Notes under the pieces: model-generated
Told to the model about the DNA's origin: nothing
What the model saw: the letters and a program-made list of their open reading frames with translations, nothing else
Databases searched by the model: none
Part shown: positions 12,952-39,794 of the stretch, in pieces
Numbering within the stretch: the stretch's first letter is position 1
Layout: each line of letters begins with the position of its first letter
Position numbers and translations under genes: made by a program
IMG/VR virus record: IMGVR_UViG_3300046804_000274
Coordinates: 1 to 40,219 of that record
Origin: a virus
DNA: 40,219 nt
Direction: 5' to 3' (one strand)

Positions 12952-13871
12952 TGGCTATTCGTAAATTTTCTACATCAAGTATTAAGACAGGCTCTAAGTC
13001 ATCCAAGTTCTGGGACCAAACCACTGTGCTTACTGTAACTGCAGACTATCTTGTAGTAGCAGGCGGTGGCGGAGGTGGCTGTGAAAATGGTGGTGGTGCT
13101 GGAGCGGGTGGACTTCGCTCAACAGTTACAGCAACGGGTAGAGGCGGTTCTTTAGAAACAGCATTACAACTAACTCCTGGTGCTACATACACAGTTACAG
13201 TTGGTTCTGGCGGGTCTGGTGGTCCTAATACATCAACACGAGGTAGTAATGGTAATAACTCAAGTATTAGTGGAAGCGGTATAACTACAGTAACTTCAAC
13301 TGGCGGTGGTGGTGGAGGTACAGGAGGTAGTGACGGTAGTTGGAACGCAGGCGGTAATGGTGGTTCTGGTGGTGGCGCAAGAGGTAATCGCACTCAAGGA
13401 GTTTCTGGTACAGGAACCACTGGTCAGGGTTATGATGCTGGAACTACAGGTTTAGGACTATCATCTCCAGGAGGTGGTGGAGCAGGTGCTGCTTCTCCAA
13501 ATGCTACTGGTGGCTCAACTCCAACAGCAGGTGGTAATGGTGTAGCAGTAGAAATTACAGGTTCATCAGTTACCTATGCAGGTGGTGGAGGCGGTAGTTG
13601 GAATGGTAATAGTGCAGCAGGTGGCAGCGGAGGCGGCGGCGCAGGCGGTACTAGTGGTAATGCAGGAACTGCTGGAACTTCTAATACAGGAGGAGGCGGT
13701 GGCGGAGGTGGTGATAATTCTACTACTGGTACTGGCGGTACAGGCGGTTCTGGTGTAGTTATTCTTCGCACAACTAGAGCAGCAACTTCTACTACAGGTT
13801 CACCAACTTATACTACCTCTGGTAGTTATCATATCTATAAATTTAATGGCGATGGTTCAATCACATACTAA
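12951..13871 (+). CDS. Glycine-rich adhesin-like tail protein, copy 2
   Basis: A 306-residue paralogue of the preceding gene in direct tandem (TAATG overlap). The N-terminal FWDQTTVLTVTADYLVVAGG and the C-terminal GVVILRTTRAATSTTGSPTY and YHIYKFNGDGSITY align with copy 1. The Gly-rich middle differs in the order of its loops, as expected if the loops define receptor specificity. Two expressed copies could give a mixed or alternative receptor-binding tip. The duplication is visible in the sequence; function is inferred from composition. Confidence 0.82.
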   Translation: MAIRKFSTSSIKTGSKSSKFWDQTTVLTVTADYLVVAGGGGGGCENGGGAGAGGLRSTVTATGRGGSLETALQLTPGATYTVTVGSGGSGGPNTSTRGSNGNNSSISGSGITTVTSTGGGGGGTGGSDGSWNAGGNGGSGGGARGNRTQGVSGTGTTGQGYDAGTTGLGLSSPGGGGAGAASPNATGGSTPTAGGNGVAVEITGSSVTYAGGGGGSWNGNSAAGGSGGGGAGGTSGNAGTAGTSNTGGGGGGGGDNSTTGTGGTGGSGVVILRTTRAATSTTGSPTYTTSGSYHIYKFNGDGSITY

Positions 13872-17571: not shown

Positions 17572-17949
17572 CTATAAACCTTTTAACCCTTCAAGTATAT
17601 CATCAATCCGTATCAAGTAGCCCTTACTTGGGTTAGGTTGGATATTACAAGTAATAGCCCTGCCACGTAGAGCAACTACCTTCTTAAGGATTTCTGTAGG
17701 TACTAACAGAGTACCACTTTCTATAACAAACGCCCAGTATTCAGCCTTTGTTGCCGACAATCCAGATGCATACCACTCATCATTATTATGAGACCAGCAT
17801 ACTGTTTCTATATATAGATTGCCTGTATCTTTCCATTTTAAATCTGTTTTTACTTCTACTGTTTTACCACCAGTAAGTAAATCATTTACTAATTGCTCAC
17901 CATCGTGACCAACAGCAAGGTCTAAATCAAAATCAGATAATTTACTCAT
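17572..17949 (-). CDS. PD-(D/E)XK nuclease-like protein
   Basis: A 125-residue protein. The segment LTGGKTVEVKTDLKWKDTGN holds a candidate active site: Asp in an upstream loop, then Glu32-Val-Lys34 as the ExK of the PD-(D/E)XK fold. IETVCWS and SGLSATKAEYWAFVI follow, as in small phage nuclease-like proteins that resemble restriction-type folds. It is the last gene of the early arm, and its ATG overlaps the WhiB stop (TGATG). It could process DNA ends or degrade host DNA. The fold assignment is by eye. Confidence 0.65.
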   Translation of the reverse strand: MSKLSDFDLDLAVGHDGEQLVNDLLTGGKTVEVKTDLKWKDTGNLYIETVCWSHNNDEWYASGLSATKAEYWAFVIESGTLLVPTEILKKVVALRGRAITCNIQPNPSKGYLIRIDDILEGLKGL

Positions 17950-18221
17950 CAGCCCATCTCATAAACTGATAGTGGAACTACTTGTTTAGGTTTTATGTTA
18001 TGCAATTTCCTATAACTTTCTCTTTGGTTTTCAGTAGTTGCTGCCCAGTAACCACTAACTGCATACTTGATTGAGTAATCAAAGCATTGTTGTATCACTG
18101 GACAATTATTACATATTCTCTTTAACATTGGCAAGTTGTCGTAACTGCCTTCTGTAAAAAAGAATTCTGTATCAATGCCCTCACACGCTGGTCTTCCTTG
18201 CCATTTTGGATAGTCGTTCAT
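17949..18221 (-). CDS. whiB-like: WhiB-family iron-sulphur transcription regulator
   Basis: A 90-residue protein with the four WhiB cysteines: Cys13 (ACEGIDTEFFF), then Cys37-x2-Cys40-x5-Cys46 in ICNNCPVIQQC. These are followed by the Trp turn (GYWAATTENQR, residues 57-67) and a short basic C-terminus. WhiB proteins bind a 4Fe-4S cluster and contact region 4 of the primary sigma factor; they occur only in actinobacteria and their phages, which fixes the host phylum. It lies near the end of the early arm with a sigma-like factor about 500 bases upstream, so it probably redirects host RNA polymerase. Confidence 0.93.
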   Translation of the reverse strand: MNDYPKWQGRPACEGIDTEFFFTEGSYDNLPMLKRICNNCPVIQQCFDYSIKYAVSGYWAATTENQRESYRKLHNIKPKQVVPLSVYEMG

Positions 18222-18530: not shown

Positions 18531-18779
18531 TTAATCACAATCTGGTCCAATGTCATCTGGGTAAGGAAGAGTAACCATTGAACCACAGTTAGCGCACTCT
18601 CCATCTAGAAAGTAAAAAGATATTTCTTTGTATTCATCAAAGGCTATAAGGGCTATGAATACCTCACAACCACAGACACATGTAGTGCCTAGTGTTTGAC
18701 CACGCAGGTCCATTGCTTTGCTATAATCAGTAGGATGTAATAAATCTCTTACATCTTTACTCTCCTGATTCATCATCAT
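18531..18779 (-). CDS. Cys-rich putative Zn-ribbon protein
   Basis: An 82-residue protein if it starts at the first of three consecutive ATG codons (18779-18771). The frame is open to 18806, but that start would lie further inside the sigma-like gene. It has CVCGC in the middle and CANCG near the C-terminus, which can form a ribbon, separated by an aromatic segment (FYFLD). It overlaps the end of the sigma-like gene by about 20 bases. The exact start is uncertain and its function unknown. Confidence 0.65.
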   Translation of the reverse strand: MMMNQESKDVRDLLHPTDYSKAMDLRGQTLGTTCVCGCEVFIALIAFDEYKEISFYFLDGECANCGSMVTLPYPDDIGPDCD

Positions 18780-19413
18780 CTTTCTTTTTGGGTAATACGT
18801 CTTCATCAGATTCTGGACGCCATCCTCCTAGATTTCTAATTAAAGATGCAACTGCACGTTGCACTTTCATTCTGGCACCATCTGCAGTTGTATCTAATTC
18901 TTTTGCTACATCAGCCCACTCGCCTAATTCCGTTGTAAATCTGGCTTGTAAAATTTTTTGCTTTGCCTCTGATAGTTTGTAGTAGGCTGCTGCAATATCT
19001 GACCGTAGAACTAGCCAGTTGTTTCCATCTGATACCTCTGACCTACTGACTGTCTGTGCTAAGTCTTTTATCTTAGTTGGAATTTCATATGATTCTGAAA
19101 TAACTGATGGCAAGAATGCTTCTATGACAGCACTGTTGTAATAATAAATATCTATATATTCGTAGCCACTAGTCTTGGCTTTTTCTTTTTCGCAATATTT
19201 TAATGCAGCATTGCGTAAAGATTTTGCAATTAATTTTTCTTTATCTTTTGGTTCAAGGGTAGACCACTCTTTATATTTAACTGGATGTGTAACAAACCAT
19301 AGCCACAATGTCTGGGCTATGTCTACCCGTTCAACCATTGGATACTTTTTGTTGTACTCACTTGCTAGAGCAGCAACAAGCGACTCGTATTCTTCCGTAT
19401 ATGAGTCGTTCAT
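18757..19413 (-). CDS. Sigma-70-like RNA polymerase sigma factor
   Basis: A 218-residue protein. The N-terminal half (residues 55-85, KLIAKSLRNAALKYCEKEKA) resembles a divergent region 2. The C-terminal part (about 137-195) has the region 4 layout: a first helix LSEAKQKILQARF, then ELGEWADVAKEL, then a recognition helix TTADGARMKVQRAVASL. The tail is acidic. Similar proteins are annotated as sigma factors in actinophages. It would direct host polymerase to phage promoters, perhaps those of the late arm. The region 2 match is weak, so its own -10 recognition is unproven. Confidence 0.75.
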   Translation of the reverse strand: MNDSYTEEYESLVAALASEYNKKYPMVERVDIAQTLWLWFVTHPVKYKEWSTLEPKDKEKLIAKSLRNAALKYCEKEKAKTSGYEYIDIYYYNSAVIEAFLPSVISESYEIPTKIKDLAQTVSRSEVSDGNNWLVLRSDIAAAYYKLSEAKQKILQARFTTELGEWADVAKELDTTADGARMKVQRAVASLIRNLGGWRPESDEDVLPKKKDDDESGE

Positions 19414-19719: not shown

Positions 19720-20005
19720 CTAGCACCATCCTTAGGCTGTCGTCTATATCTATCATTGCTTCTTGAACTAAAACATCTTCTACTATTTGATTGCCTTTGC
19801 CTTCGGCAGCAGCCAATATAACTTCAGCCAATAGAGTAAGTCCTGAGTTCTTTGATTCAACTGTTTTTAATACATAGATATCTCGCAATGCATTTAAGAT
19901 ATCCAATCCTTTATTATCTGATAAAGGAATACCAATTAATCTAGGGTGTTCTTTAATATAACTCCAGATATCTTCTTTAAGATATGACTCGTTTGATTCG
20001 TTCAT
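19706..20005 (-). CDS. Hypothetical helical protein
   Basis: A 99-residue protein that overlaps the TOPRIM primase gene by 29 bases and the DUF1599 gene by 14. It is acidic and helical throughout, with LKEDIWSYIKEHPRLIG and LLAEVILAAAEGKG. I do not recognise a family. Its tight placement behind the primase suggests a replication-linked role, but nothing in its sequence proves that. Confidence 0.65.
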   Translation of the reverse strand: MNESNESYLKEDIWSYIKEHPRLIGIPLSDNKGLDILNALRDIYVLKTVESKNSGLTLLAEVILAAAEGKGNQIVEDVLVQEAMIDIDDSLRMVLDEGQ

Positions 20006-20603
20006 CTATAAATCCAATCCCTTCCGCTAGTACTACTGAGTTCACGTCATGCCCATCTGGCATCTGAACTATATTTGCATTACCTAATTCACGGGTAATT
20101 TTTTTGCCGAACTCTAGTCCTGCTGCATCACCATCTGCAAGGATAATGACTGTTTCAAAATCATCTAATATTTTAGAGTAGTATGGTTTCCAATTATTAG
20201 CGCCAGGAATTCCAACCGACGGATGATTTGTTTTAGCAACTACAGTTATACAATCTATCTCACCTTCGGTGACACATATATATCCGTCTGCTGTTAGTAC
20301 TGCTTGTGAGTTAAACATTGTTGTTTTAGCCCCTGGCATACCCATATATTTAGGGTCGCCACCTGACATAGTTCTGAATCTAATATCAACTACGCCTGAT
20401 GGTGTTACATAAGGAATTGCTAATCTACCCATGTAACCTTCGTGACCTGGCAATGGATGTTCCACTACGCCTAGATGAAATCGCTGAACTTCTTCTACCG
20501 ACAACCCTCTGCTCGCTAGATAATCCGTTGCTAGATGAATGCTTGCTTTGTATGTCTCTGTTGCCTGTAAGAGAAATGCTCTCTGCGAATTTGATAGCCT
20601 CAA
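19977..20603 (-). CDS. Primase catalytic (TOPRIM) subunit
   Basis: A 208-residue protein. The N-terminal LQATETYKASIHLATDYLASRGL and GHEGYMGRLAIPYV match the RNA polymerase-like domain of DnaG-type primases. The TOPRIM core has EGEID (residues 113-117) and ADGDAAG (DxD at 157-159), the metal-binding acids. The gene starts with TTG at 20603, in a +1 frame relative to the zinc-finger gene and inside it. GGAGG lies eight bases upstream (AAGGAAGGAGG), so initiation there is well supported. Together the two genes make one primase in two polypeptides. Confidence 0.88.
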   Translation of the reverse strand: MRLSNSQRAFLLQATETYKASIHLATDYLASRGLSVEEVQRFHLGVVEHPLPGHEGYMGRLAIPYVTPSGVVDIRFRTMSGGDPKYMGMPGAKTTMFNSQAVLTADGYICVTEGEIDCITVVAKTNHPSVGIPGANNWKPYYSKILDDFETVIILADGDAAGLEFGKKITRELGNANIVQMPDGHDVNSVVLAEGIGFIDERIKRVIS

Positions 20604-20823
20604 TGTAAGTGCCTCCTTCCTTCTCCATAATTAAATCGTATACATCTCCACCAACACCACATCCATGACATTTAAATCTTTGTTCATCAAAGTTAACGCC
20701 AGCAGATGCATGTGAATCTTGGTGAAAGGGACATTTAATCTTGCGCCAGCCGTGCCCCTGTTGTGGCAAGGCGGCGCCTAAGTATGCTAGATACTCGGCA
20801 ATACTATGCTTTTGATTGTCCAT
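20425..20823 (-). CDS. Primase zinc-binding (CHC2) subunit
   Basis: A 132-residue protein. Cys31-x2-His34 (CPFH) and Cys52-x2-Cys55 (CHGC) form the CHC2 zinc motif of DnaG primases, followed by GGDVYDLIMEKEGGTYIEAIKFA. After residue 85 the reading becomes a Ser/Arg-rich tail of about 45 residues that shares its DNA with the TOPRIM gene in another frame and has no family match. The zinc domain recognises priming sites. The first bases overlap the resolvase gene by 20. The tail may be a by-product of the overlap, or a +1 frameshift may fuse both parts. Confidence 0.85.
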   Translation of the reverse strand: MDNQKHSIAEYLAYLGAALPQQGHGWRKIKCPFHQDSHASAGVNFDEQRFKCHGCGVGGDVYDLIMEKEGGTYIEAIKFAESISLTGNRDIQSKHSSSNGLSSEQRVVGRRSSAISSRRSGTSIARSRRLHG

Positions 20824-23805: not shown

Positions 23806-24078
23806 CTATTCTTCCGAATCAATCCACGCATCAAGGTGATGCGCTTCAATAATTGCACTAACTGGTGCATTGGTTTGTCCCTTCCAGGTAATGCCTGATG
23901 GAAGTTCTATTAGCCTGTCCCAATCGCCATCTGATGCTGCATAGATAGCCTCAACACATGGCTCGACCATGGTTGATGGTACTGGTGGATAATGATTGCC
24001 TGTTAGATGAATGTATATTGATTGTTTAATATCAATAACATTCTCTGCTAAATCATTGGCTGTAATTCTACCCATCAT
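23806..24078 (-). CDS. Hypothetical protein
   Basis: A 90-residue protein whose start overlaps the DUF932 stop by four bases (ATGA). It has MGRITANDLAENVIDIKQSI and a central EPCVEAIYAASDGDWDRLIEL, and ends DAWIDSEE. It is acidic and probably helical. I do not recognise a family. Confidence 0.7.
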   Translation of the reverse strand: MMGRITANDLAENVIDIKQSIYIHLTGNHYPPVPSTMVEPCVEAIYAASDGDWDRLIELPSGITWKGQTNAPVSAIIEAHHLDAWIDSEE

Positions 24079-25052
24079 GCACCTAACAGTTCTAATGCAC
24101 GCAATTTCAAGCCGTCATTGCGGGCACTGATTGTCGCAATGGCGGCGTCTTTACGACTGTTGCCATGGTCTGCGTATTCAATGACTGACTGCCATAATCC
24201 GAACTCTGTGTTACGGATATTCTCTTGTGTTGGAGAGTCATTGTAAATAGAGAATGCTTTATCTCTAGCAGCGAGTGCTCTACTACGCATACTCTTTTCT
24301 CCTTTGCTAAGGAGTTCAATTGGGGAGTACTCCACTTTACTTGGGAGTGGGAATACTTTCTTGAAGTAGTTGATTGCGTGCTCACGGGTAGCCTCTCGCT
24401 CTAGTAATACAGTAGATAGTTGTGTATACATTTCCATAGATGTATAAGTCAGTTGCATAATCTGTTTGATTTCCTGAGGATTAAGAACTGCATTAGTTGT
24501 ATGGCGTAATGTATATGTCATTTGATTTTTGCCACGATAGATTTTATTAATCTGATTATGACAAAACAAACGCTCAATTACTGGGCGTATAACTACAGAT
24601 GATGAACCATCATGACTGGTCTTAGCCAAGATGAATGCTGCATGTGGGTCGCCTTTGATTTCCATTTCATTAGGCAACTGCAATAGCATCCATACTTTTG
24701 CACCTCCGTCATACTCACCTGCTGCTGCATAGCGAGCCTCACCTGAATCAATGATGGCATCAAGGGAAGAAAAGACTTCACCATTTTGGAATGGTTGGTA
24801 TCGCTTACCAACTACACCTACTGCTGTGGTCTCACCTAATGCCGTTGTTTTTACAACTGCCAATTTATTTTTGATAGGTAACAATGATGGACTGTCATTA
24901 CCTGGAACTAAATAATTGGCTGATAAATCATGCAATGATACTGTCCAATCAAGACCTGCTTGACGGGCTACATCACTGGCTGATGTTGCTTCTACTGCTG
25001 TGCCACTACGCACAAATGCAGATTTGTTTTTAGTAGGAACTGCTGATGTCAT
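24075..25052 (-). CDS. DUF932 protein (phage/plasmid-like)
   Basis: A 325-residue protein. The block AVGVVGKRYQPFQNGEVFSSLDAII, followed by GEYDGGAKVWMLLQLP, SHDGSSSVVIRPVIERLFCHNQI and TYTLRHTTN, is the signature of the DUF932 (TIGR03299-type) family found in phages and plasmids. The family length of about 300-340 fits. Its biochemical role is not known; it is usually next to replication or recombination genes, as here. Start and stop overlap both neighbours, so it is in one translation unit with them. Confidence 0.88.
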   Translation of the reverse strand: MTSAVPTKNKSAFVRSGTAVEATSASDVARQAGLDWTVSLHDLSANYLVPGNDSPSLLPIKNKLAVVKTTALGETTAVGVVGKRYQPFQNGEVFSSLDAIIDSGEARYAAAGEYDGGAKVWMLLQLPNEMEIKGDPHAAFILAKTSHDGSSSVVIRPVIERLFCHNQINKIYRGKNQMTYTLRHTTNAVLNPQEIKQIMQLTYTSMEMYTQLSTVLLEREATREHAINYFKKVFPLPSKVEYSPIELLSKGEKSMRSRALAARDKAFSIYNDSPTQENIRNTEFGLWQSVIEYADHGNSRKDAAIATISARNDGLKLRALELLGA

Positions 25053-27696: not shown

Positions 27697-28020
27697 TTAA
27701 GCGATTGATTGAACCTCAATCTGTGTGTAAGGTGCGTAACGCTCTGCGTTATCTACACCTGGACGGCGGTCAAAACGAGTTACGATTCGTCCTGAAATCT
27801 TAACTGTTTCTGATGCTCCGTTATCATCTTTTGGAAGCGCTTGCGCTTGCTTGGCAACTTCCTCATCTAGGAATACCAATGGCATTGTTGCGATACAACC
27901 TACCTTGCCCCACTCATTGATGATACCTGTTTGCACTAAGTTGCCTGTCAAAACTTTACGCTCTGACTTGCCACGAAGTTGTACATTCTTGATGCTACCT
28001 GTGATTGTTACTGCGTTCAT
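27697..28020 (-). CDS. ssb-like: Single-stranded DNA-binding protein-like (OB fold)
   Basis: A 107-residue protein starting at the ATG at 28020 after AAAGGAGACAG. It has TITGSIKNVQLRGK, LTGNLVQTGIINEWGKVG, MPLVFLDEEVAKQA, then ETVKISGRIVTRFDRRPG and a final beta strand (YTQIEVQSI). The beta pattern and the SGRIVTRF strand are those of a compact OB-fold SSB. No acidic SSB tail is present. It is the second gene of the early arm and is followed by a strong terminator, so it should be made early and in quantity. Confidence 0.7.
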   Translation of the reverse strand: MNAVTITGSIKNVQLRGKSERKVLTGNLVQTGIINEWGKVGCIATMPLVFLDEEVAKQAQALPKDDNGASETVKISGRIVTRFDRRPGVDNAERYAPYTQIEVQSIA

Positions 28021-28045
28021 TTCTGTCTCCTTTAGTTGTTGTGGG

Positions 28046-28085
28046 CGGGTTGCCCCCAAGGCACAGGGTGCTGGGGGCAATCCCG
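28046..28085 (-). promoter_or_regulatory. Long hairpin between the first early gene and the SSB-like gene
   Basis: CGGGTTGCCCCC (28046-28057) pairs with GGGGGCAATCCCG (28073-28085), with a single-base bulge, capped by an inner stem GCAC (28061-28064) with GTGC (28068-28071). No T-run follows on the minus strand. It is probably an attenuator, a processing site or a stabiliser of the SSB message. Confidence 0.68.
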
Positions 28086-28092
28086 TTGTTAC

Positions 28093-28488
28093 TTAGTTAG
28101 ATACTGTCTCACAATTTGGACAAGCCACTTGGACATGGACTTGATAGTGGCACTGTACACAGATTGTGTAGCGAGGGGGAATCTCAACATCTAGGTCGAA
28201 GATGCGGTCTGAGAGGAGGGTAGTTTGTTCTAGAAACTCCTCTCGTATGGTTCCGTCATCTTGGAGGGTGTAGGCACCAATCCAATCGTGGGCAGAAGGC
28301 TCAACGGATTGGATTGACACAGGATTGGAGTACTGAAGGTTACCTTCATCTACAATCTGCCAAGCGTTGTTTGTATCACGGGCGTCCCGTGAATCTTGGC
28401 AGTCGGTGCATACATCATCAATCAGTAGGCAGTTATAGCACTGGTTGGTGATGTTGATACCGTTTGGTACGAACTCATCTTTTTTCAT
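28093..28488 (-). CDS. First early gene: Cys-rich double-knuckle protein
   Basis: A 131-residue protein that starts at the ATG at 28488 after AAAGGAT. The N-terminus has CYNCLLIDDVCTDC and the C-terminus CVQCHYQVHVQVACPNC, two four-Cys clusters about 75 residues apart, each able to bind zinc. The middle is acidic with Trp (SAHDWIGAYTLQDD). As the first gene of the leftward arm it is likely to act at once on host functions, but its target is unknown. Confidence 0.72.
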   Translation of the reverse strand: MKKDEFVPNGINITNQCYNCLLIDDVCTDCQDSRDARDTNNAWQIVDEGNLQYSNPVSIQSVEPSAHDWIGAYTLQDDGTIREEFLEQTTLLSDRIFDLDVEIPPRYTICVQCHYQVHVQVACPNCETVSN

Positions 28489-28589
28489 TTTATATCCTTT
28501 GTTAGTAGTGAGTACCACGGCTGTGGCTCGCTCCAGCCATCGGGTCTTTTACGGGCAGTCAAGCACAAGGCTAATTTAAGTCTTGATGT

Positions 28590-28609
28590 AATTTTTGCCT
28601 GCAAAAATT
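28590..28609. promoter_or_regulatory. 20-base near-perfect palindrome
   Basis: AATTTTTGC (28590-28598) and GCAAAAATT (28601-28609) flank two bases. An AT-rich palindrome of this size, about 100 bases upstream of the leftward arm, is a good candidate for an operator bound by a dimeric regulator. Confidence 0.6.
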
Positions 28610-28681
28610 CAGCAAGAGTTATACAGCCAGTAGCACGGCTGCGTGAAACGCTGACGGGCTGAGCGCTGGGATTAGGCAGGC

Positions 28682-28709
28682 TTGACGGGTTGGAAAAGCC
28701 CGATACAAT
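28682..28709 (+). promoter_or_regulatory. Near-consensus rightward promoter
   Basis: TTGACG (28682-28687) and TACAAT (28704-28709) are spaced by 16 bases; each differs from the sigma-70/HrdB consensus at one position. Transcription would start near 28716, run through the hairpin-rich region and enter the terminase gene at 29268, giving a leader of about 550 bases. A separate noncoding RNA is also possible. Confidence 0.65.
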
Positions 28710-28735
28710 GACAGAGCCATAGCAAGAAAAGGTAA

Positions 28736-28756
28736 ATGCTGATGGCTCAACAGCAT
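28736..28756 (+). other. Hairpin 1 of the leader region
   Basis: ATGCTG (28736-28741) pairs with CAGCAT (28751-28756) around a nine-base loop. It is the first stem after the predicted start near 28716. Confidence 0.5.
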
Positions 28757-28810
28757 GGGCGTGGCTTTAGACACGGCATGCCTGAGACAGCCTGCATGAC
28801 CTACTGCCAA

Positions 28811-28848
28811 GGCTGAAACTATTTTTTATATAGAACAAAATAGTTAGC
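28811..28848 (+). other. Long hairpin with a two-base bulge
   Basis: AACTATTTT (28817-28825) pairs with AAAATAGTT (28837-28845). After a bulge (GA) the stem continues with GGCT (28811-28814) and AGCC (28845-28848). The loop holds TTATATAGAAC. Confidence 0.6.
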
Positions 28849-28927
28849 CTGTACTGGGGCGCTGTCTGGTAGCGCCGATAAGACTGTAGCCCGTAGCGCT
28901 CCAGTCTGTACAGTACAGAGCGACAGC
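28849..28927 (+). other. Nested and competing inverted repeats
   Basis: GGCGCT (28858-28863) pairs with AGCGCC (28871-28876), but CTGGGGCGCT (28854-28863) can instead pair with AGCGCTCCAG (28895-28904) with one mismatch. CTGTACT (28849-28855) matches AGTACAG (28912-28918), and GCTGTC (28861-28866) matches GACAGC (28922-28927). Mutually exclusive stems of this kind are typical of RNA switches and of origin DNA. Confidence 0.6.
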
Positions 28928-28972
28928 ATTAAACAGGATAGCGGTCGATTCATCGACCCTAGACTGTTTAAT
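28928..28972 (+). other. Long hairpin with a tandem G-A internal loop
   Basis: ATTAAACAG (28928-28936) pairs with CTGTTTAAT (28964-28972); TAG (28939-28941) pairs with CTA (28959-28961); GGTCGA (28943-28948) pairs with TCGACC (28953-28958) around TTCA. The symmetric internal loop is GA opposite GA, which in RNA forms stable sheared pairs. This is the strongest structure of the region. Confidence 0.7.
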
Positions 28973-29083
28973 TTGCTTCTAATAGCGTAGTAGTATCTAC
29001 CTAAAATATTTTCTGGTACAACAGTGCACCCGTTACAGTAGTACTATATGTCCTAATTTATACCCATTTTTGGGCTGCTTTGG

Positions 29084-29110
29084 GCAAAGGAAAAAAATAT
29101 ATTCCTTTGC
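29084..29110 (+). other. Hairpin with A-rich loop
   Basis: GCAAAGGAA (29084-29092) pairs perfectly with TTCCTTTGC (29102-29110) around an AT-only loop of nine bases. On DNA this also forms the most AT-rich, easily melted spot of the region. Confidence 0.6.
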
Positions 29111-29111
29111 A

Positions 29112-29136
29112 CCGTTCGGAATGGCTAGTTGAACGG
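29112..29136 (+). other. Hairpin CCGTTC/GAACGG
   Basis: CCGTTC (29112-29117) pairs with GAACGG (29131-29136), loop 13 bases. Confidence 0.5.
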
Positions 29137-29151
29137 ATTAATACTATATAG

Positions 29152-29167
29152 GGGCAGGTTTCTGCCC
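29152..29167 (+). other. Hairpin GGGCAG/CTGCCC
   Basis: GGGCAG (29152-29157) pairs with CTGCCC (29162-29167) around GTTT. It is compact and stable, and no T-run follows. Confidence 0.55.
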
Positions 29168-29176
29168 AGTTAACTA

Positions 29177-29220
29177 GAAAGCCTCAAAGGCTTTCGTTAC
29201 AGACTGTATCTACTGTCTGT
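29177..29220 (+). other. Two hairpins just before the terminase gene
   Basis: GAAAGCC (29177-29183) pairs with GGCTTTC (29189-29195) around TCAAA. ACAGAC (29199-29204) pairs with GTCTGT (29215-29220). The 12-base sequence GTTACAGACTGT (29196-29207) recurs with one change at 29219-29230, so direct repeats overlap the second stem. Confidence 0.55.
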
Positions 29221-29267
29221 TACAAACTGTGTAATTAACAATACAGTATAGAGGATGGGACAGTTCT

Positions 29268-31154
29268 GTGACTTTTCAAAAAGGGGTTAATAACCCAAGA
29301 ACTGAGGCTATGGCTGATGCCAAGGCTAAGGTTTTAGCCCTTGTGGCTGAAGGACATAGTCCTCACAAGGCTATGGAACTCTGTGGCAAAAAACCTGACA
29401 CTGTCAGAATTTGGATGCTTCGGGACAAAAAATTTGCCGCCGACCTAGCAGAGGCAAAAGAAGACGCCAAGAACAAATCTGTGAAAGCGCTGGGAATTGC
29501 TAAGGACGAAATCTCCTTCCCCCAGTTCTCCGAAATTTTTTTAGACCAAAAGGTTTTTCCACATCACCAAGATTGGATTGACTTACTAGAGGGTAGGGAA
29601 CCTTCTTGGCTCCACCCTTCTATGAAGTACGAGCAAGGACAACAATCTCGTCTTCTAATTAACGTGCCTCCTGAGCATGCTAAGAGCACGGTCATTACCG
29701 TCAACTACTCGACTTATCGCATTGCTCTCAATCCCAATGTCCGCATTATCGTGGTCAGTAAGACCTTACTCAAAGCACGAGAATTCGTGTACGCAATCAA
29801 GCAACGTCTCTCCCACCCAAGATGGTTGAAGTTACAAACAACCTATGGACCTGAAGGTGGATGGAAAGCAGACTCTGACACTTGGCGAGTTGATACTGTC
29901 TATCTTGGGAGTGATGCGAGAAACTCTTCCGAAAAGGACCCCACCATCCAAGCACTTGGTATGGGTGGACAGATTTACGGTGCCCGTGCTGACCTCATCA
30001 TTTTGGATGACTGCATTACCACGGCTAACGCCCATGAGTACGAAAAGCAAATTGACTGGCTACAGAAGGAAGTTATTACCCGTCTAGGTAAAAACGGAAA
30101 ACTTCTTATCGTTGGCACTCGAATTGCTGCTACAGATTTTTATAGAGAGTTACGTGAACCCAAGTATTGGTCTGGGGGTAAGTGCCCTTTCACCTACATG
30201 GGTATGCCAGCAGTTTTAGAGTATGACGAAGACCCTGAAAAGTGGGTAACGCTTTGGGCTAAGTCTGATGCACCTTGGGATGGCGATGAAGAAACGCCAG
30301 ATGAGAATGGTTTGTTTCCTAAGTGGGATGGCAAAACTTTACAACGGCGCAGAGGTGAAGTAACTCCATCAACTTGGGCATTGGTATATCAGCAGGAGGA
30401 TGTCGAAGAAGATTCCATCTTCCCGCCCGCCTTGATTCAAGCATGTATCAAGGGTACTAGGAGACGTGGTCCCTTGAAGCAAGGGGCGGTGGGACATCCG
30501 ACTGCGGTTGAAGGTTACACAGTAATTGGCTTTGACCCTGCTATGGCAGGTAATGCTGCTTTTGTAGTTTTAACTTACAACAGAGCAGATGGCAAAATTT
30601 ATGTGCTTGATTGCATAAACATGAGCGAACCGAATCCTCAAAAAATTCGAAACACTATTGAAGAACTTGTTGGCAAATATAAGCCACAAGAATTTCGTGT
30701 GGAAATCAACGCTCACCAGAAGGCTTACTCATTAGATGAGGACTTGCGCCAATGGCTCGCAACCTACGGCGTAAGGCTAGAAGCACACTTTACTGGTAAA
30801 AATAAGTGGGACACAAATTTCGGTGTGGCATCTATGTCAACACTATTTGGCACCATGCGAGATGGAAAGTTTCAAAACAACAACATTATTGAACTTCCAT
30901 CAACCACGGAATCAGAGGGGCTTAAGGCTTTAGTTCAACAACTAATAACCTGGAAAGCAAACACAAGGGGCAAGACCGACTGTGTTATGGCTTTATGGTT
31001 TGCGGTTCTTCGTGCTAGAGAATTTATGCAGCAGACAAGTAACCTAACAAGGTTTGCAAATAACCGTTGGGTAACTAGAGCACAAAGAGAACAAAGATAC
31101 GTTGTTAATTTAGACGAAGCCTTCCAAGAGCAGTGGGCTGAAACTTACGGATAG
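29268..31154 (+). CDS. terL: Terminase large subunit
   Basis: A 628-residue protein with a GTG start. Residues 15-70 form a helix-turn-helix-like DNA-binding part (SPHKAMELCGKKPDTVRIWM), which may replace a separate small subunit; none was found nearby. The ATPase has Walker A PPEHAKST (134-141), Walker B LIILDD (243-248) and coupling motif IVGTRI (281-286). The nuclease has GFDPAMAG with Asp423, VEINAHQKA and KTDCVMALWFA. It packages DNA into proheads. It is the first gene of the late arm. The GAGGA at 29251 is rather far from the GTG, so an ATG at 29310 is a possible alternative start. Confidence 0.95.
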   Translation: MTFQKGVNNPRTEAMADAKAKVLALVAEGHSPHKAMELCGKKPDTVRIWMLRDKKFAADLAEAKEDAKNKSVKALGIAKDEISFPQFSEIFLDQKVFPHHQDWIDLLEGREPSWLHPSMKYEQGQQSRLLINVPPEHAKSTVITVNYSTYRIALNPNVRIIVVSKTLLKAREFVYAIKQRLSHPRWLKLQTTYGPEGGWKADSDTWRVDTVYLGSDARNSSEKDPTIQALGMGGQIYGARADLIILDDCITTANAHEYEKQIDWLQKEVITRLGKNGKLLIVGTRIAATDFYRELREPKYWSGGKCPFTYMGMPAVLEYDEDPEKWVTLWAKSDAPWDGDEETPDENGLFPKWDGKTLQRRRGEVTPSTWALVYQQEDVEEDSIFPPALIQACIKGTRRRGPLKQGAVGHPTAVEGYTVIGFDPAMAGNAAFVVLTYNRADGKIYVLDCINMSEPNPQKIRNTIEELVGKYKPQEFRVEINAHQKAYSLDEDLRQWLATYGVRLEAHFTGKNKWDTNFGVASMSTLFGTMRDGKFQNNNIIELPSTTESEGLKALVQQLITWKANTRGKTDCVMALWFAVLRAREFMQQTSNLTRFANNRWVTRAQREQRYVVNLDEAFQEQWAETYG

Positions 31155-34160: not shown

Positions 34161-37100
34161 GTGAGAGTTTTAAAACCCATTGTCGCTGAAGCGTCACCTA
34201 CGCTTTATCAGGCAGCAACTAGGGCAAACCTAACAGCCAAAGAACAAAACCAAGTTGAACAAATGTCTTGGGCTGTCAAAAAGAACAGAGAACTCACACA
34301 GATGTCATCTAACGATGCACGTAGAGAGTTTGAAGCCCTTGACCCTAATGCTAAAGAAGGCTTAAAGTCATTTTTTGGTGAGGCTGAATACATGCAACAG
34401 CCACCAGATTTTGGTGACCGTGCTTTGGGTGCATTAAAATTTACTGGCAAACTACTTGCAAGCCCACTTATCGGATTGTTTAAAGTTGCTGGCGCATACA
34501 ACCGTGTTATTAATGAGCCATATAAGGTTGCTCGTCAAGTTGCACAAGGCGAAAGCATTTTTGATTACAGAGTTTGGCGTGATGCTTGGGACGGCAAAGA
34601 CCTATATGACAACAAAGCAATTGCTGAGGCTGAAAATGTATTTGGTAAAGCAAAAGTTTATGTAGCAAAAGGATTACTTGAAGGCAAGAAGCCTGGAGAA
34701 ATTCTTGAGTCATATGGAGATTTAACTCCAGAGATTACTGCTGCGGTTGAAGAAGCATTTAATAATCCAGATGCATTTAAGCAGGTAATGGATGCTGCAA
34801 AGTATGCACAGTTTAGCCCTGGTCGTGATATTGCTAGAATATTTGATACCAAGCCACCTAAGAATGGTGGTCTTGCTGGCGATTATATTGATGGCACTAC
34901 TAAAAATGTATCAGGTGTAATTGATTTTATTTATCAACTTGCTATTGACCCATTAACTTGGATTACTGGTGGTACTAGCAAGGCTGCAACTCGTGGAACA
35001 CAGTTAGCAGAACTTGTAACTAAGGCTGGCGATGATGTCGCTGCTGGTGTAGCACAAGTATTTAAAGATAAGGGTGTTATCAAACTTTGGGACGAGCAGT
35101 TTGGTCCAGAGATTGAGCGTCTTGCCTCTGCAAGGAATGAAGCAGAGAAAGCAATTATCCGTAGAGATATTGGAAGACGTTTTCCTGGATACAATAATGA
35201 TGAAGCACTAAATTTCTTTGCTAAGAAAAAAATGTTTAATGCTGAAAAAGCAGAAGATATTTTTTCTCAGGCAGAAAATGTGCATCTATTACTTTCAGGT
35301 CGTTTAGATGGTATGACTTATCGCCGCAATGGCGTAGTTACTGCTCGTGCAGACCGCCGTCTTACTCGTGGTCTTGAATCTTTCCTAGAGGCTACATTTG
35401 ACAAAGCCTTTGTTAAGGCTGATAACTTCTTTAACGTAAAGCGTGGTGCTGAGGAACTACAAGCAAAAGGTTCTGATGCATGGGATATTCTTGCAACTGC
35501 AGGGCGTAAATCTGATGAGGCTGTAAATCCACAGATTGTAGAATTTACAAAGCAAGAAAAAGATATTAAGGGATTTAGAAACAAAGTAGATGCCTTTGGT
35601 AAGTGGGCAGGCAAAATGGCAGCCCGCAACCCAGCAGGACAAGCAGTACTAACTGGCGATGATGCAATCAAGACAATTGATACAGTTCGTAACTATGCTC
35701 GCTTAGTTCTTGACCGTGATATGGCAGATTTTGTAGCACAAAAGTTTTTAACATCTACAGAAGATGAGCAAATTGTAGTAATGCGAAATCTTTACGCAGC
35801 AATTATGCAGCGTGCTGGTATTACTGATGAAGCAATCATGAAAGAGTATCTAAAGAAGACTCATAATGGACGTGCTGGTTTTACAACTACAGTAAGAACT
35901 GAAGTTGATGACCAGTTTGCTGGACTTCTTTCTAAAGATACAGTTAAGTATGAGAATGACACAGCATTACTTGAGGGTTCTGGAGCAATTCAACCATCAC
36001 AGATTGCAAGAGGTGTAGGTCCGCTTCCTTTGGAGGAGATTGCACTTAAGGCAAATGAAATAAAGTCAAAGCAAAGCCTTATTAAGGCTGCACAAGGTGC
36101 AACTAAATCTAAGTTTGCTAAAGACTTTGTAGATTTCTGGTCTGTGTTTACTCTTTTCCCACGTTTGGGTATTCGTTCAGCCATTGACGAAGGCTTTATG
36201 TATGCACTTACTGCACCTGGTAGAGATTTATTAAACTTTGCTAAGGGACAAGGACGCAAAACTGGTCGTGCTAGTGCTGCTTATACTGGTAGTAGCGCAG
36301 CAGAAGGTCCAGTTGGTAGCGTTCTACGCAAACTCTTTGGCAAAGGTCCATCATCTGAGTACCTTAGCATTGATAAGCGTAATGAAATCATTGAACAACT
36401 TGCAAAAGATGCCAATGTTTCACCTGCTGAAGTGCAACACCTTGTAATTAATCAGGCTATTGCAGACCGTGTAAAGATTTTCTTGCCAGAAAAACTTGGC
36501 GATGAAGCAATGCGGCACTGGAATGAAGCAATGATTTACAATCCAGACATCCTGAACACAATGGCTAGTTCAGTTGCTGCAAGAAGTTCTTTAGGTTCAT
36601 CCTTTGATGAGGTTATTAGAAACAATCAGATTAACCTTAGCGAATTATCTAATGCTCTTAACGCTGTTGGTCGTAAGATGGCACGTAAAAAGTATGAAGG
36701 TAAGAATCTTTCTGAAAAAGAAATTGATGAACTTGTTAAGAATGAAGGATTAAAGTCTGGTACTAAGTACGAAGAGTATGCAGTAGAGAAACTTCGTGAT
36801 GCCAACCCAGAGTATGTAACTCTTGCTCACTATGACAACTGGTATATCCGTTTTGCTACACCACGCCAGCATGGTAGAGGTTTAAAGATTGCAGATGACT
36901 ACAGAGTAGCCCCTGCTATTGCATTCTTTAATCACGGTGCTTTAAAGACACCTGAGAATTTCTCCAAGGCTATGGACGATATGTATACCTATCTTGGCAT
37001 GAAGAAGATTGGTAGCAATGTTGGAACAAAATCCATACCTGGCGGAAATGCTGGTAAGGGAACACCGCTTGGTGATGCAAAAGATATTGCTATGCGAAAT

Positions 37101-39794
37101 GATGCCGATGCTGCAATTGTTGAACTAGAGAATATTGAAAGACAAAAAGAAATTGTCGAAGCAGTTCCAAATGCTGTTGGCAAGTCATCAACAGAAACAT
37201 CGTTATTACAACTTGGACCAATAACAGATGATTTAACTGGCAAAACAATTATGTTGGCAAGAAATGGAAAACTTGCTAACCAACCACTTCGTAAAGAAAC
37301 TATTCAACAGATTAAGTCTGCAAAAGAAGCAGGTGCAAAATTTATTGTTGGAGATATGCCAGGTGTAGATAGTGCATATTACAAGATTCTTGATGAAATC
37401 CAGGCAGATTATATTGTTTATCATACTGGTGCATCATCTAGAGTTAAGATAAATACAAGGTCTTCTGAAGGAACATGGCAAGTAACTGAGAAAAATATAG
37501 ATGCTGTTAAAAAGTTTAATAGTTTCTTTGGTGATTCAGTATTTATGCGCCAAGAAGGTAAGACAGATTTTGATATTGCTCGTGTCCATTTAGAGCGCAT
37601 GCTCATGGATATGCGAGATAACTTCCATGGTGGACCTAAGAGTTATAACCAAGGTCTATATGATGCAATCAAATCTAACTACAACGCCCTAGTTGCTAAA
37701 GAAAAAGCGCAAAAAGCAGAGGGTATGCGTAAGTGGAAGATTGGCAGCAAGTGGCAGAAGGCTGCACAGATGATTGACTTTAAGCAGTTTGATGAACTAA
37801 CAAAGGGATATCAACCATCTGGTTTAATCCAAACTCGTATTGAATTCCCAGACTTAACTACATTTGAGAGTGCATTTAAGCGTCTTGGTAATACCATGAT
37901 GGAGTCAATGGATAAGCAGGTTAACGGATTACTACGTCAACCAGCAGTTATGACTACATATCTAAGACTTCGTAAAGAGTATTCAGGTATTCAAGCAGCC
38001 TATGCTCGTGAGTTAAGAGCCAAAATGATTGCCGAAAACCCAACCAGATGGAAGGGTGATAAGGCACAGGCTCGTCTTAATAACTTAGTTGAAGAGCAAT
38101 CTGCTAAACACTTTACTGAGATTGCACTTAATGATGCTGCAGATACAGTATTAAAGTTTGCGGATAACCCATCTATTCGCTCTAACTTTGCAGTAGAGGT
38201 ACGAACAGTTGGTCGTTTCTATCGTGCAACTGAAGACTTCTGGCGCCGTTTGTATCGTCTTAAGGATGTATCTCCTACAGTTCTATACCGTATGCGCCTT
38301 GCTCACCTTGGATTATCTTCAAGTGGTATGTTCCACGAAGACCAGAATGGTGAGCCATACATCATGATGCCTATGGATAACATCATATTTAAGGCAACTG
38401 ATACAAGCATTAAGGCTCTTACTGGCGAAAGCCAATACAAGCAGCCAATGTTTAATGACTTTACATTTAAGTTAAGTAACGTAAACCCATCATTCTCACC
38501 TGATTCTGGTTTGCCTTTACTTAGCGGTCCTATTGCGGCACTTAGCGTTATTGGTATGAAGAACCTAGTAAGTAAAGTTCCTATCCCTGGCGCAGAGAAG
38601 GCAGCACAAGACTTTGACAACTACGCACTAGGAAACCTAGGTGATAACGTAGATGTTGTCCGTGCTTTAGTTCCTGGTTCTTTATTGAAACTATGGAATA
38701 TTCTTCCTATCAATGAGAAGACCAGACAAGAAGTAACTGCTGCACAACAGGCTGTTGCATACAATGCAGCACACGGATTGAGCCTGCAACCTACTGCTAC
38801 TGACCAAGAGAAATATGAATATCTAAATGCTATTCGTACATCTGCTCACAACGTAGTTGCATTGCGTTCTATCCTTGGTCTTATCTCTCCAGTGACAGCA
38901 TCATTACAAGAAAGCAAAGACGTTCCAGACTATCTACTTGATGTAGGTATTACTGGATTGCGTAATGAGTTCTGGGATATCTACGAGTCTGTTAACAAGA
39001 AGTATGGCAGCGATGTTCAAGACCCATATGAGTTATCTCTAAGTATCTTTACTGGTCAATACCCAGGCAAAATTGTTTATACAGTAGCCCGTGACGAAAA
39101 GCAGACTAAGGTTCTTATCTCAAAGACTACACAGATGCGTAACTGGGCTATTGAGAACAAGAAGTTAATTGGCGCTTATGGCGAAGCAGCATATATCTTT
39201 GGTCCACATACTGGTGACTTTAATGCTGGTATCTATAACTGGCTACAAGCAGCAGACCTTCTAAAGGATAAGGACTTAGAAACATACTTTAGGGATGTTC
39301 AGGTTGCTGAAGATAAGCAAGCATATTATGACATTGCTTCTTGGGAAAAGAATGCACTTGCTAGTCAGACCTACATTTCAGAACGTAAAAAAATTATTGA
39401 GACTGCAACACAGGCTCGTAAAGGTTTGTTAGCATCTAATCCATTGCTACTTGGTGCTATTACTGGTGGCGGTAATGAGATTGCTACAGAAGAATCAATG
39501 CTTAGCAGCCTAAAGCAAATGGTTTCAGACCCAACAACTAACATTGATGATGGTGTCAGACTTAAGATGAAGACAGCGGTTCAGGCTATGGAAGACTTTA
39601 TGAGTTTTGCTAAGAGCGACCAAGTTCGTAGTCTTTATAATGCATCATCACTTAAGCGGGACTATCGTGCTCGTGTTGAGAACATTATCAATCAGTTGGC
39701 GTCAGAAGACCCAGCAGTTAAAGAAGCAGCAAGAGCAATCTTTAATTCAATATTAAAGTATTACTCACGAGATACTTATAGAGCGGCGGTATAA
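34161..39794 (+). CDS. Giant multidomain virion protein (putative ejection protein)
   Basis: An 1877-residue protein with a GTG start after AGGAG. It is helical and soluble over most of its length. One hydrophobic stretch (FTGKLLASPLIGLFKVAG, about residues 94-111) could be amphipathic. Residues about 1025-1095 form an embedded alpha/beta unit (GKTIMLARNGKLANQPL, AKEAGAKFIVGDMPGVDSAYY, ADYIVYHTG) resembling the SLOG/Rossmann-type domain. The C-terminal third has VRTVGRFYRATEDFWRRLYR and MRLAHLGLSSSGMF. Size and position fit a podovirus internal protein injected with the DNA. It could instead be read as a tape measure, but tail-tube and chaperone genes are missing. Confidence 0.78.
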   Translation: MRVLKPIVAEASPTLYQAATRANLTAKEQNQVEQMSWAVKKNRELTQMSSNDARREFEALDPNAKEGLKSFFGEAEYMQQPPDFGDRALGALKFTGKLLASPLIGLFKVAGAYNRVINEPYKVARQVAQGESIFDYRVWRDAWDGKDLYDNKAIAEAENVFGKAKVYVAKGLLEGKKPGEILESYGDLTPEITAAVEEAFNNPDAFKQVMDAAKYAQFSPGRDIARIFDTKPPKNGGLAGDYIDGTTKNVSGVIDFIYQLAIDPLTWITGGTSKAATRGTQLAELVTKAGDDVAAGVAQVFKDKGVIKLWDEQFGPEIERLASARNEAEKAIIRRDIGRRFPGYNNDEALNFFAKKKMFNAEKAEDIFSQAENVHLLLSGRLDGMTYRRNGVVTARADRRLTRGLESFLEATFDKAFVKADNFFNVKRGAEELQAKGSDAWDILATAGRKSDEAVNPQIVEFTKQEKDIKGFRNKVDAFGKWAGKMAARNPAGQAVLTGDDAIKTIDTVRNYARLVLDRDMADFVAQKFLTSTEDEQIVVMRNLYAAIMQRAGITDEAIMKEYLKKTHNGRAGFTTTVRTEVDDQFAGLLSKDTVKYENDTALLEGSGAIQPSQIARGVGPLPLEEIALKANEIKSKQSLIKAAQGATKSKFAKDFVDFWSVFTLFPRLGIRSAIDEGFMYALTAPGRDLLNFAKGQGRKTGRASAAYTGSSAAEGPVGSVLRKLFGKGPSSEYLSIDKRNEIIEQLAKDANVSPAEVQHLVINQAIADRVKIFLPEKLGDEAMRHWNEAMIYNPDILNTMASSVAARSSLGSSFDEVIRNNQINLSELSNALNAVGRKMARKKYEGKNLSEKEIDELVKNEGLKSGTKYEEYAVEKLRDANPEYVTLAHYDNWYIRFATPRQHGRGLKIADDYRVAPAIAFFNHGALKTPENFSKAMDDMYTYLGMKKIGSNVGTKSIPGGNAGKGTPLGDAKDIAMRNDADAAIVELENIERQKEIVEAVPNAVGKSSTETSLLQLGPITDDLTGKTIMLARNGKLANQPLRKETIQQIKSAKEAGAKFIVGDMPGVDSAYYKILDEIQADYIVYHTGASSRVKINTRSSEGTWQVTEKNIDAVKKFNSFFGDSVFMRQEGKTDFDIARVHLERMLMDMRDNFHGGPKSYNQGLYDAIKSNYNALVAKEKAQKAEGMRKWKIGSKWQKAAQMIDFKQFDELTKGYQPSGLIQTRIEFPDLTTFESAFKRLGNTMMESMDKQVNGLLRQPAVMTTYLRLRKEYSGIQAAYARELRAKMIAENPTRWKGDKAQARLNNLVEEQSAKHFTEIALNDAADTVLKFADNPSIRSNFAVEVRTVGRFYRATEDFWRRLYRLKDVSPTVLYRMRLAHLGLSSSGMFHEDQNGEPYIMMPMDNIIFKATDTSIKALTGESQYKQPMFNDFTFKLSNVNPSFSPDSGLPLLSGPIAALSVIGMKNLVSKVPIPGAEKAAQDFDNYALGNLGDNVDVVRALVPGSLLKLWNILPINEKTRQEVTAAQQAVAYNAAHGLSLQPTATDQEKYEYLNAIRTSAHNVVALRSILGLISPVTASLQESKDVPDYLLDVGITGLRNEFWDIYESVNKKYGSDVQDPYELSLSIFTGQYPGKIVYTVARDEKQTKVLISKTTQMRNWAIENKKLIGAYGEAAYIFGPHTGDFNAGIYNWLQAADLLKDKDLETYFRDVQVAEDKQAYYDIASWEKNALASQTYISERKKIIETATQARKGLLASNPLLLGAITGGGNEIATEESMLSSLKQMVSDPTTNIDDGVRLKMKTAVQAMEDFMSFAKSDQVRSLYNASSLKRDYRARVENIINQLASEDPAVKEAARAIFNSILKYYSRDTYRAAV

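Follow-up and report, generated by a model that had tools for sequence, protein, structure and literature searches.

A hairpin-rich noncoding region upstream of the terminase gene of a freshwater actinophage is probably a packaging junction with a short direct terminal repeat

In the IMG/VR virus record IMGVR_UViG_3300046804_000274, one block of genes is oriented leftward, beginning at about 28.5 kb, and another rightward, beginning at 29.3 kb; between the two blocks lies a stretch rich in hairpins at positions 28489-29267. What is the function of this stretch? The first-pass annotation had suggested that it encodes a structured RNA of about 500 nt, serves as a replication origin, or acts as a terminase leader with regulatory folds. 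We analysed the whole record of 40,219 bases (here called the window) and compared it with relatives in IMG/VR, which are referred to by L numbers, and with known phages. The explanation we favour, with a probability of about 0.87, is that the region represents the concatemer junction cut by the terminase, with the phage carrying short direct terminal repeats in the general way of T7. We place the packaging junction here because the right end of the repeat of Streptomyces phages of cluster BF falls at the homologous place and contigs of relatives break there.

Genome setting and folding of the region

The left neighbour gene lies on the minus strand and starts with the ATG at 28488 (AAAGGATATAAAATG start), with a longer version from the GTG at 28518 as a possible alternative. 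The only open reading frames of at least 30 amino acids wholly inside 28519-29267 encode 63 and 44 amino acids, both on the minus strand. In agreement with the about 780 gene-free bases annotated initially, no convincing gene was found between the ATG at 28488 and the GTG at 29268, where the gene encoding the large terminase subunit starts. In this protein, Terminase_6C scored above the Pfam cut-off and HTH_23 (E 2.5e-4) below it. It is about 60% identical to the terminases of the Planktophila phages E7 and F5 (OX376640, OX376641) and 44-47% identical to those of the Streptomyces cluster BF phages, with 44% (280/632 columns) for TerL of Immanuel3. The passages of PMC10202952 that we drew on name Planktophila as the host of E7 and F5 and report WhiB and a sigma factor for these phages. 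The window likewise encodes a sigma factor, for which no Pfam match was obtained at E 0.01, and WhiB (17949-18221), as well as primase pieces, a DnaB-like helicase, a major head protein and a portal. This gene content and the closeness of the terminase to those of E7 and F5 point to a freshwater actinophage.

Some further genes of the window deserve mention. The primase is apparently split into two overlapping open reading frames within 19977-20823, a zinc-finger part (20425-20823) and a Toprim part (19977-20603). Two adjacent open reading frames of 295 and 306 amino acids (12064-13871) both match nearly the same stretch of phrog_2295, which suggests a tandem duplication. A protein of the DUF932 family (PF06067, phrog_1221) with no role assigned is encoded at 24075-25052. 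The portal and peptidase-like genes are followed by a gene for a protein of 1877 amino acids (34161-39794) without a match in PHROG (E 0.001) or Pfam (E 0.01).

The folding potential of the region clearly exceeds that of shuffled sequence. The series of inverted repeats noted at first was recovered as 16 hairpins (symmetric score), compared with 4-11 in 30 dinucleotide shuffles, and none of 100 shuffles folded as well as positions 28700-29270 (z -6.8). For 28519-29267, we obtained z -11.3 on the plus strand and -6.0 on the minus strand (20 shuffles each), and the single-strand DNA fold of 28885-29267 gave z -6.1 (100 shuffles). The near-consensus promoter of the first-pass annotation does exist as TTGACG-16-TACAAT at 28682-28709 (10/12 matches), but two such sites were found in 27900-29700 and 2.3 are expected by chance. 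Therefore, we do not regard this site as evidence.

Conserved layout upstream of the terminase gene

We kept 80 terminase relatives of at least 595 in IMG/VR, and 73 of these 80 show a DNA match to the noncoding region. The outer left part (28519-28803) is matched from near its start in only six of the 80 (L002, L004, L006 and L011 in full length, L054 and L058 in pieces), as if it had been swapped between phages. Two earlier global alignments, the first of them built from a fixed distance, gave no usable consensus in the 5' part, and the alignment used here was anchored on the conserved boxes. The features of the window are as follows.

28885..28995, plus strand: predicted direct terminal repeat of 111 bp, TGTAGCCC...GTAGTAGTA, with the virion left end at 28885 and the right end at 28995, placed by homology
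28928..28972, plus strand: hairpin ATTAAACAG..GGTCGATTCATCGACC..CTGTTTAAT, entirely within the predicted repeat (inverted-repeat search, folds)
28955..28972, plus strand: conserved arm GACCCTAGACTGTTTAAT, 23 nt before the predicted cut; resembles GACCCGGGGGTTGTTAAAC of the BF phages, 21 nt before the end of their repeat
28993..28998, plus strand: predicted terminase cut GTA|TCT, between 28995 and 28996 (contig ends of L203, L212 and L336)
29003..29020, plus strand: conserved box AAAATATTTTCTGGTACA, just within the left end; most often AAAAGATTTTCCCGTACA in relatives, recognisable by eye in E7/F5
29084..29110, plus strand: 9-bp hairpin GCAAAGGAA..TTCCTTTGC, present in the window and its eight closest aligned sequences, absent from the other rows of the alignment
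29112..29136, plus strand: hairpin CCGTTC..GAACGG, with four inner pairs standard in 92/92 non-redundant sequences
29131..29151, plus strand: highly conserved GAACGGATTAATACTATATAG, candidate late promoter core (alignment; the phage encodes a sigma factor)
29152..29167, plus strand: hairpin GGGCAGGTTTCTGCCC (alignment, inverted-repeat search)
29177..29195, plus strand: hairpin GAAAGCCTCAAAGGCTTTC, GCAAGTTC..GGAACTTGC in many relatives (alignment columns 254-260 with 268-274)
29196..29225, plus strand: conserved GTTACAGACTGTATCTACTGTCTGTTACAA element (pattern scan)
29254..29263, plus strand: GATGGGACAG, possible weak ribosome-binding site before the terminase start
29268..31154, plus strand: terminase large subunit with an N-terminal helix-turn-helix-like segment (phrog_38, E 4e-69; GTG start)
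18757..19413, minus strand: phage sigma factor that may read the conserved promoter-like element (phrog_354, E 2e-15)

A pattern derived from the 3' part of the region, the GTTACAGACTGTATCTACTGTCTGTTACAA element, was scanned over IMG/VR. In 192 loci (overlapping loci counted separately), it matched 166 times among the matches listed, and 164 of these 166 lie upstream of a terminase start at a distance of 35-153 nt. The spacing is narrow: among the matches listed, 160 of the 164 are located 35-59 nt from the start codon and the remaining four at 153 nt (L018, L019, L123 and L166, with L018 and L166 being one contig). In L019, the conserved element is separated from the terminase start by a tRNA-Arg(ACG) gene (599-672). 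As for the two matches elsewhere, L169 lies at a contig end and L131, which has no terminase, is a chance match. Of 59 further loci, no box was seen in 45, and another, L285, seems to match by chance. The region can thus be regarded, as was initially proposed, as a strongly folding, conserved noncoding element tied to the terminase gene, on the strength of the shuffle tests and its conservation upstream of that gene.

The features follow one another in this order: the arm GACCC..TTTAAT is followed after about 23 nt by GTA|TC, after another 7 nt by the AAAAGATTTTCCCGTACA-like box, and then by the hairpin CGTTC..GAACG, a TATA-like element, a second hairpin, the GTTACAG element and the terminase gene. 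We determined the spacing by searching for the arm first and then for the box 20-60 nt downstream, independently of any cut motif. Among the matches listed, the distance from arm to box was 30-32 nt in 146 of 146 unique sites; measured from TTAA, it was 31 nt in 125 of them, 30 nt in 14 and 32 nt in 7. A separate motif-based search for TA followed by TC, AC or CAC located a cut motif 7-8 nt before the box in 132 of the 146 unique sites among the matches listed, with [AT]GTA|TC as the commonest form (108/146).

The hairpins themselves are conserved to different degrees. In the hairpin at 29112-29136, one of the inner pairs shows a U-A/C-G exchange, which is the only base pair significant against the phylogenetic null, and the next outer pair breaks in 20 of the 92 non-redundant sequences. 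All of the 92 sequences that have letters at the hairpin of 29177-29195 form standard pairs in it, and 5 of its 7 pairs show changes on both sides. Other stems are paired and show double changes, below significance against this null. The test, which was similar to R-scape, has low power owing to the high sequence conservation of the 3' part. Thus, the covariation to be tested according to the first-pass annotation is weak, being present in some stems and reaching significance in a single pair. For the hairpin at 28928-28972, a counterpart with a score of at least 8 was found in 33 of 59 non-redundant relatives, compared with 1 of 59 after one shuffle of the 5' side; a sequence's own arm gave a better match than borrowed arms in 39/59 and a worse one in 18/59. 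The arm sequence is also kept in L073, L116 and E7, which lack this hairpin. Since the arm is kept where the hairpin is not, recognition of the DNA sequence seems to be primary. The highly conserved GAACGGATTAATACTATATAG occurs once in the window with up to three mismatches allowed, with zero occurrences expected, and a short structured leader starting from this candidate promoter is possible.

Contig ends and terminal repeats in relatives

A genome end at this site should cause some metagenome contigs to stop there. At least three do so at the predicted cut. L203 and L212, which come from different samples, stop 22 nt after TTTAAT, exactly at GTA (GTAGAGTA), and L336 stops at GTATC, followed by CTCTC that is absent from its relatives. 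Altogether, eight contigs end within 420 nt after the arm among the matches listed, five of them (L200, L201, L225, L245 and L260) at places other than the cut. On the other side, 26 unique contigs have their start upstream of a recognised box at a distance below 190 nt; among the matches listed, 16 of these starts cluster at 104-126 nt and 10 fall outside this main cluster. The clearest left end, TGTTCTCC, is shared by four contigs with neighbouring sample numbers, perhaps from one study. Four contigs with an arm near their start but an unrecognised box come in addition to the 26: L232, L235 and L249 begin 69-72 nt before the arm, like the cluster, and L236 begins 113 nt before it. A fifth, L267, looks like a chance match.

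Seven of the 16 clustered starts carry heads of 4-8 nt without a counterpart in the closest full-length relative, and 41 of their 42 letters are purines. This count leaves out the heads of L069, L071, L143, L248 and L265, which consist of 1-2 letters or look like divergent homologous sequence; for all 12 unmatched heads, purines make up 67 of 97 letters compared with 59 of 97 in relatives at the same places. At 3' ends, the tail added by Accel-NGS 1S libraries is rich in C/T. The C/T head at the right end and the A/G heads at the left ends would fit such a tail; they look like library tails attached to true DNA ends, presumably from this kit. According to the passages of PMC6612421 and PMC6511391 consulted, these libraries add a low-complexity tail, and 10 bases are trimmed to remove it. 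The word length of the assembler was considered as a cause of the left contig starts and set aside in view of the purine heads and the exact repeat described below. Break points of homology between full-length pairs are dominated by conserved islands and variable spacers and were not used for the left end.

The repeat itself was found in the relatives. L336 has at its right end exactly the 112 nt that L085 and L334 have at their left ends; beyond them, the sequences differ on both sides, and in all three records this stretch is present once, within 8 nt of the record end. The overlap of L336 and L085 is 100% identical over the 1000 nt tested, and therefore they represent the same or a very close virus. 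By their coordinates, the two records together give a linear genome of 39,194 bp with a repeat of 110 bp, or 112 bp if the ambiguous TC is counted. The repeat of L015 comprises 111 nt, from TGTAGCCCG to GTA. In the window, the start motif shared with L015 (contig start GGAAAA|TGTAGCCCG) is found at 28885 and GTA|TC at 28995, again 111 nt apart; the left end was placed by this motif, and the right end by the three contig ends and by homology to the end of the BF repeat. Most likely, 28885-28995 is therefore the 111-bp terminal repeat of the window, with exact coordinates transferred by homology. No second copy was found in the window, and no 14-mer of the predicted repeat recurs elsewhere on its plus strand. 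A single internal copy of the junction is what would be expected for a contig assembled across joined ends. Thus, the same sequence occurs at both ends of the linear genome of a relative and, as judged by homology, probably also of the window's phage. The ends appear to be fixed and non-permuted, with three contigs ending and four beginning at the same aligned points.

The cultured BF phages (Beephvirinae) show a corresponding arrangement. For five of them, including FlowerPower, direct terminal repeats of 253 bp are given in the relevant passages of PMC9753666, and for another member one of 265 bp in those of PMC13097060. By comparing the record ends we measured 275 bp for Immanuel3 and 253 bp for FlowerPower. 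The right boundary of their repeat reads GTTGTTAAAC, 21 nt, GAGTG|AGTCCCC, and is followed by an A-rich box which reads ATAAAAATCC (TAAAAATCC) in Immanuel3. The order of an arm ending in GTTGTTAAAC, the cut and the A-rich box is the same as in the freshwater site, and the spacing from GACCC to the A-rich box is, by eye, 47 nt in Immanuel3 and 48 nt in L063. Likewise, the terminase gene is the first annotated gene, after 678 and 623 feature-free bp in Immanuel3 and FlowerPower, respectively, and is preceded by hairpins; a similar sequence is present in the Streptomyces phage JXY1 (circular record). However, the BF repeats are longer (253-275 bp compared with about 111 bp), the region is GC-rich with many ATGTCC repeats, the box of FlowerPower reads TGAAATTTCC, and the hairpin at the arm is lost in both phages looked at. 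In E7 and F5, the arm, the box and a CGTTC..GAACG-like hairpin were recognised by eye upstream of the terminase gene, whereas the hairpins are otherwise largely different from those of the window. In the relatives, both the terminal repeats and their position are shown, indirectly by contig ends in the freshwater group and by publication in the BF phages.

Two small similarities were seen at the other end of the region. The reverse complement of GATGGGACAG (29254-29263) resembles the left end of the BF repeat (GTCCCAT). Furthermore, with regard to the window (29254-29263) and L190, GATGGGACAGT before the terminase start is the reverse complement of ACTGTCCCATC, which occurs in JXY1 where the repeat of Immanuel3 begins; this may be due to chance or reflect an inverted recognition motif.

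Alternative explanations and implications

In the proposed mechanism, the terminase, which carries a helix-turn-helix-like segment, would recognise the stretch beside its own gene and cut the replicated DNA at GTA|TC (28995|28996). This cut is located between the arm, 23 nt before it, and the AAAATATTTT box, 7 nt after it. The 111 bp upstream of the cut (28885-28995) would end up at both ends of the virion DNA, and the side at 28996-29267 would become the left end of the packaged genome, holding the promoter-like element and the hairpins that lead into the terminase gene. The hairpins would act mainly on the DNA, in cutting or in copying of the repeat, perhaps together with a short RNA leader. 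As a principle, and leaving sequences uncompared, this corresponds to the concatemer junction of T7, where a short exact direct terminal repeat is made when the concatemer is cut. T7 has a separate small terminase, whereas here the helix-turn-helix-like segment is part of the large terminase. For T7, a DNA hairpin intermediate was reportedly proposed by Chung and colleagues in 1990. It is improbable in our view that the conserved hairpins in and beside the repeat are DNA structures which, once the strand is exposed, fold and prime or guide the copying of the repeat as the concatemer is cut, or else the source of a short left-end RNA with a role in packaging like that of the phi29 packaging RNA. 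If true, it would mean a system of hairpin-guided repeat duplication or RNA-assisted packaging in freshwater actinophages.

Could the conserved site mark something other than such a repeat? Sites adjoining the terminase gene are typical of cos (cohesive-end) and pac (headful) packaging as well, and the location would suit a site of this kind without a terminal repeat. But in a relative the identical 112 nt lie at the start of two contigs and at the end of a third, with an overlap elsewhere in one pair of them, which amounts to a terminal duplication. The BF relatives carry terminal repeats, too, and this leaves a cos or pac site with very little probability. The contig breaks might also be assembly artefacts at a strain-variable spot that have nothing to do with virion ends, since homology between pairs is often interrupted in this stretch and assemblies are broken by variable spacers. 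The almost pure purine heads of the seven contigs, the start shared by four contigs at TGTTCTCC, the agreement of the breaks with the end of the BF repeat and the 112 nt in common make this very unlikely. We think the same of a replication origin with iterons, an AT-rich opening site and hairpins. An AT-rich conserved run and TGTCC repeats in many relatives would fit, as would a minimum of the cumulative GC skew near 28 kb. But the skew follows gene direction, and its minimum coincides with the direction switch. The primase, helicase and exonuclease genes lie at 19.9-23.2 kb, away from the region, and instead of an iteron array the region contains just one TGTCC and one GGACA, so that the origin suggested at first could not be confirmed. 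TGTCC iterons were also considered as terminase sites; they are frequent in some relatives and in BF phages, but the window has single copies only.

A structured RNA, be it a single molecule of about 500 nt or a 5' leader of about 110-130 nt that folds and controls translation or decay of the terminase transcript, is rather unlikely as the explanation of the region. In its favour, the plus strand folds better than the minus strand (see above), 29150-29267 folds with z -4.2, the hairpin at 29177-29195 is paired with double-sided changes as described, and GGGACA before the start codon could pair upstream. Against it stand the single significant base pair, the tRNA gene of L019 between the element and the terminase gene, and the predicted genome end at 28995|28996, which splits the proposed long RNA. 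Pairs of the G-U and A-C type in the hairpins are nearly equal in number (91/93 at score 18, 197/216 at score 14), which indicates no preference for one strand. The same test barely separated the two in E. coli rRNA (18/14 and 46/34), and because of this weak control we did not use it as evidence for DNA. The large folded RNAs GOLLD and ROOL are phage-linked too, and GOLLD occurs in lakes. However, none of 4227 Rfam families matched the window at the gathering score, with only far-sub-threshold matches in a permissive scan, and the position of our region is tied to the terminase gene and the predicted genome end. The GOLLD model gave no match on the window, a result of little weight since the controls of the same search were also without a match. 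The RNA of about 500 nt was therefore not substantiated, with a predicted virion end at a conserved point in its middle and no Rfam family; because of this end, a contiguous RNA of that length is unlikely, while it could still be made from joined or concatemeric DNA. The leader with regulatory folds survives for roughly the last 110-130 nt, and in this form it is compatible with the packaging junction.

Junctions with terminal repeats are known as a kind; what appears to be new is their mapping in this group and the conserved, hairpin-rich layout. A literature search within one library gave no description of the genome ends of the freshwater group; in the main text of PMC10202952, terms for ends, packaging and noncoding sequence turned up a single, unrelated match. 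Our results suggest that library-tailed contig ends in public metagenomes can reveal virion termini, and they are a warning against taking every hairpin-rich noncoding region next to a terminase gene for a giant RNA, since it can be a genome end. For the mostly uncultured group of freshwater actinophages, the packaging junction fixes the likely physical genome ends and the packaging site. Moreover, it ties this group to cultured relatives, the Planktophila phages E7/F5 and the Streptomyces BF phages, in which the cutting and the origin of the repeat can be tested.
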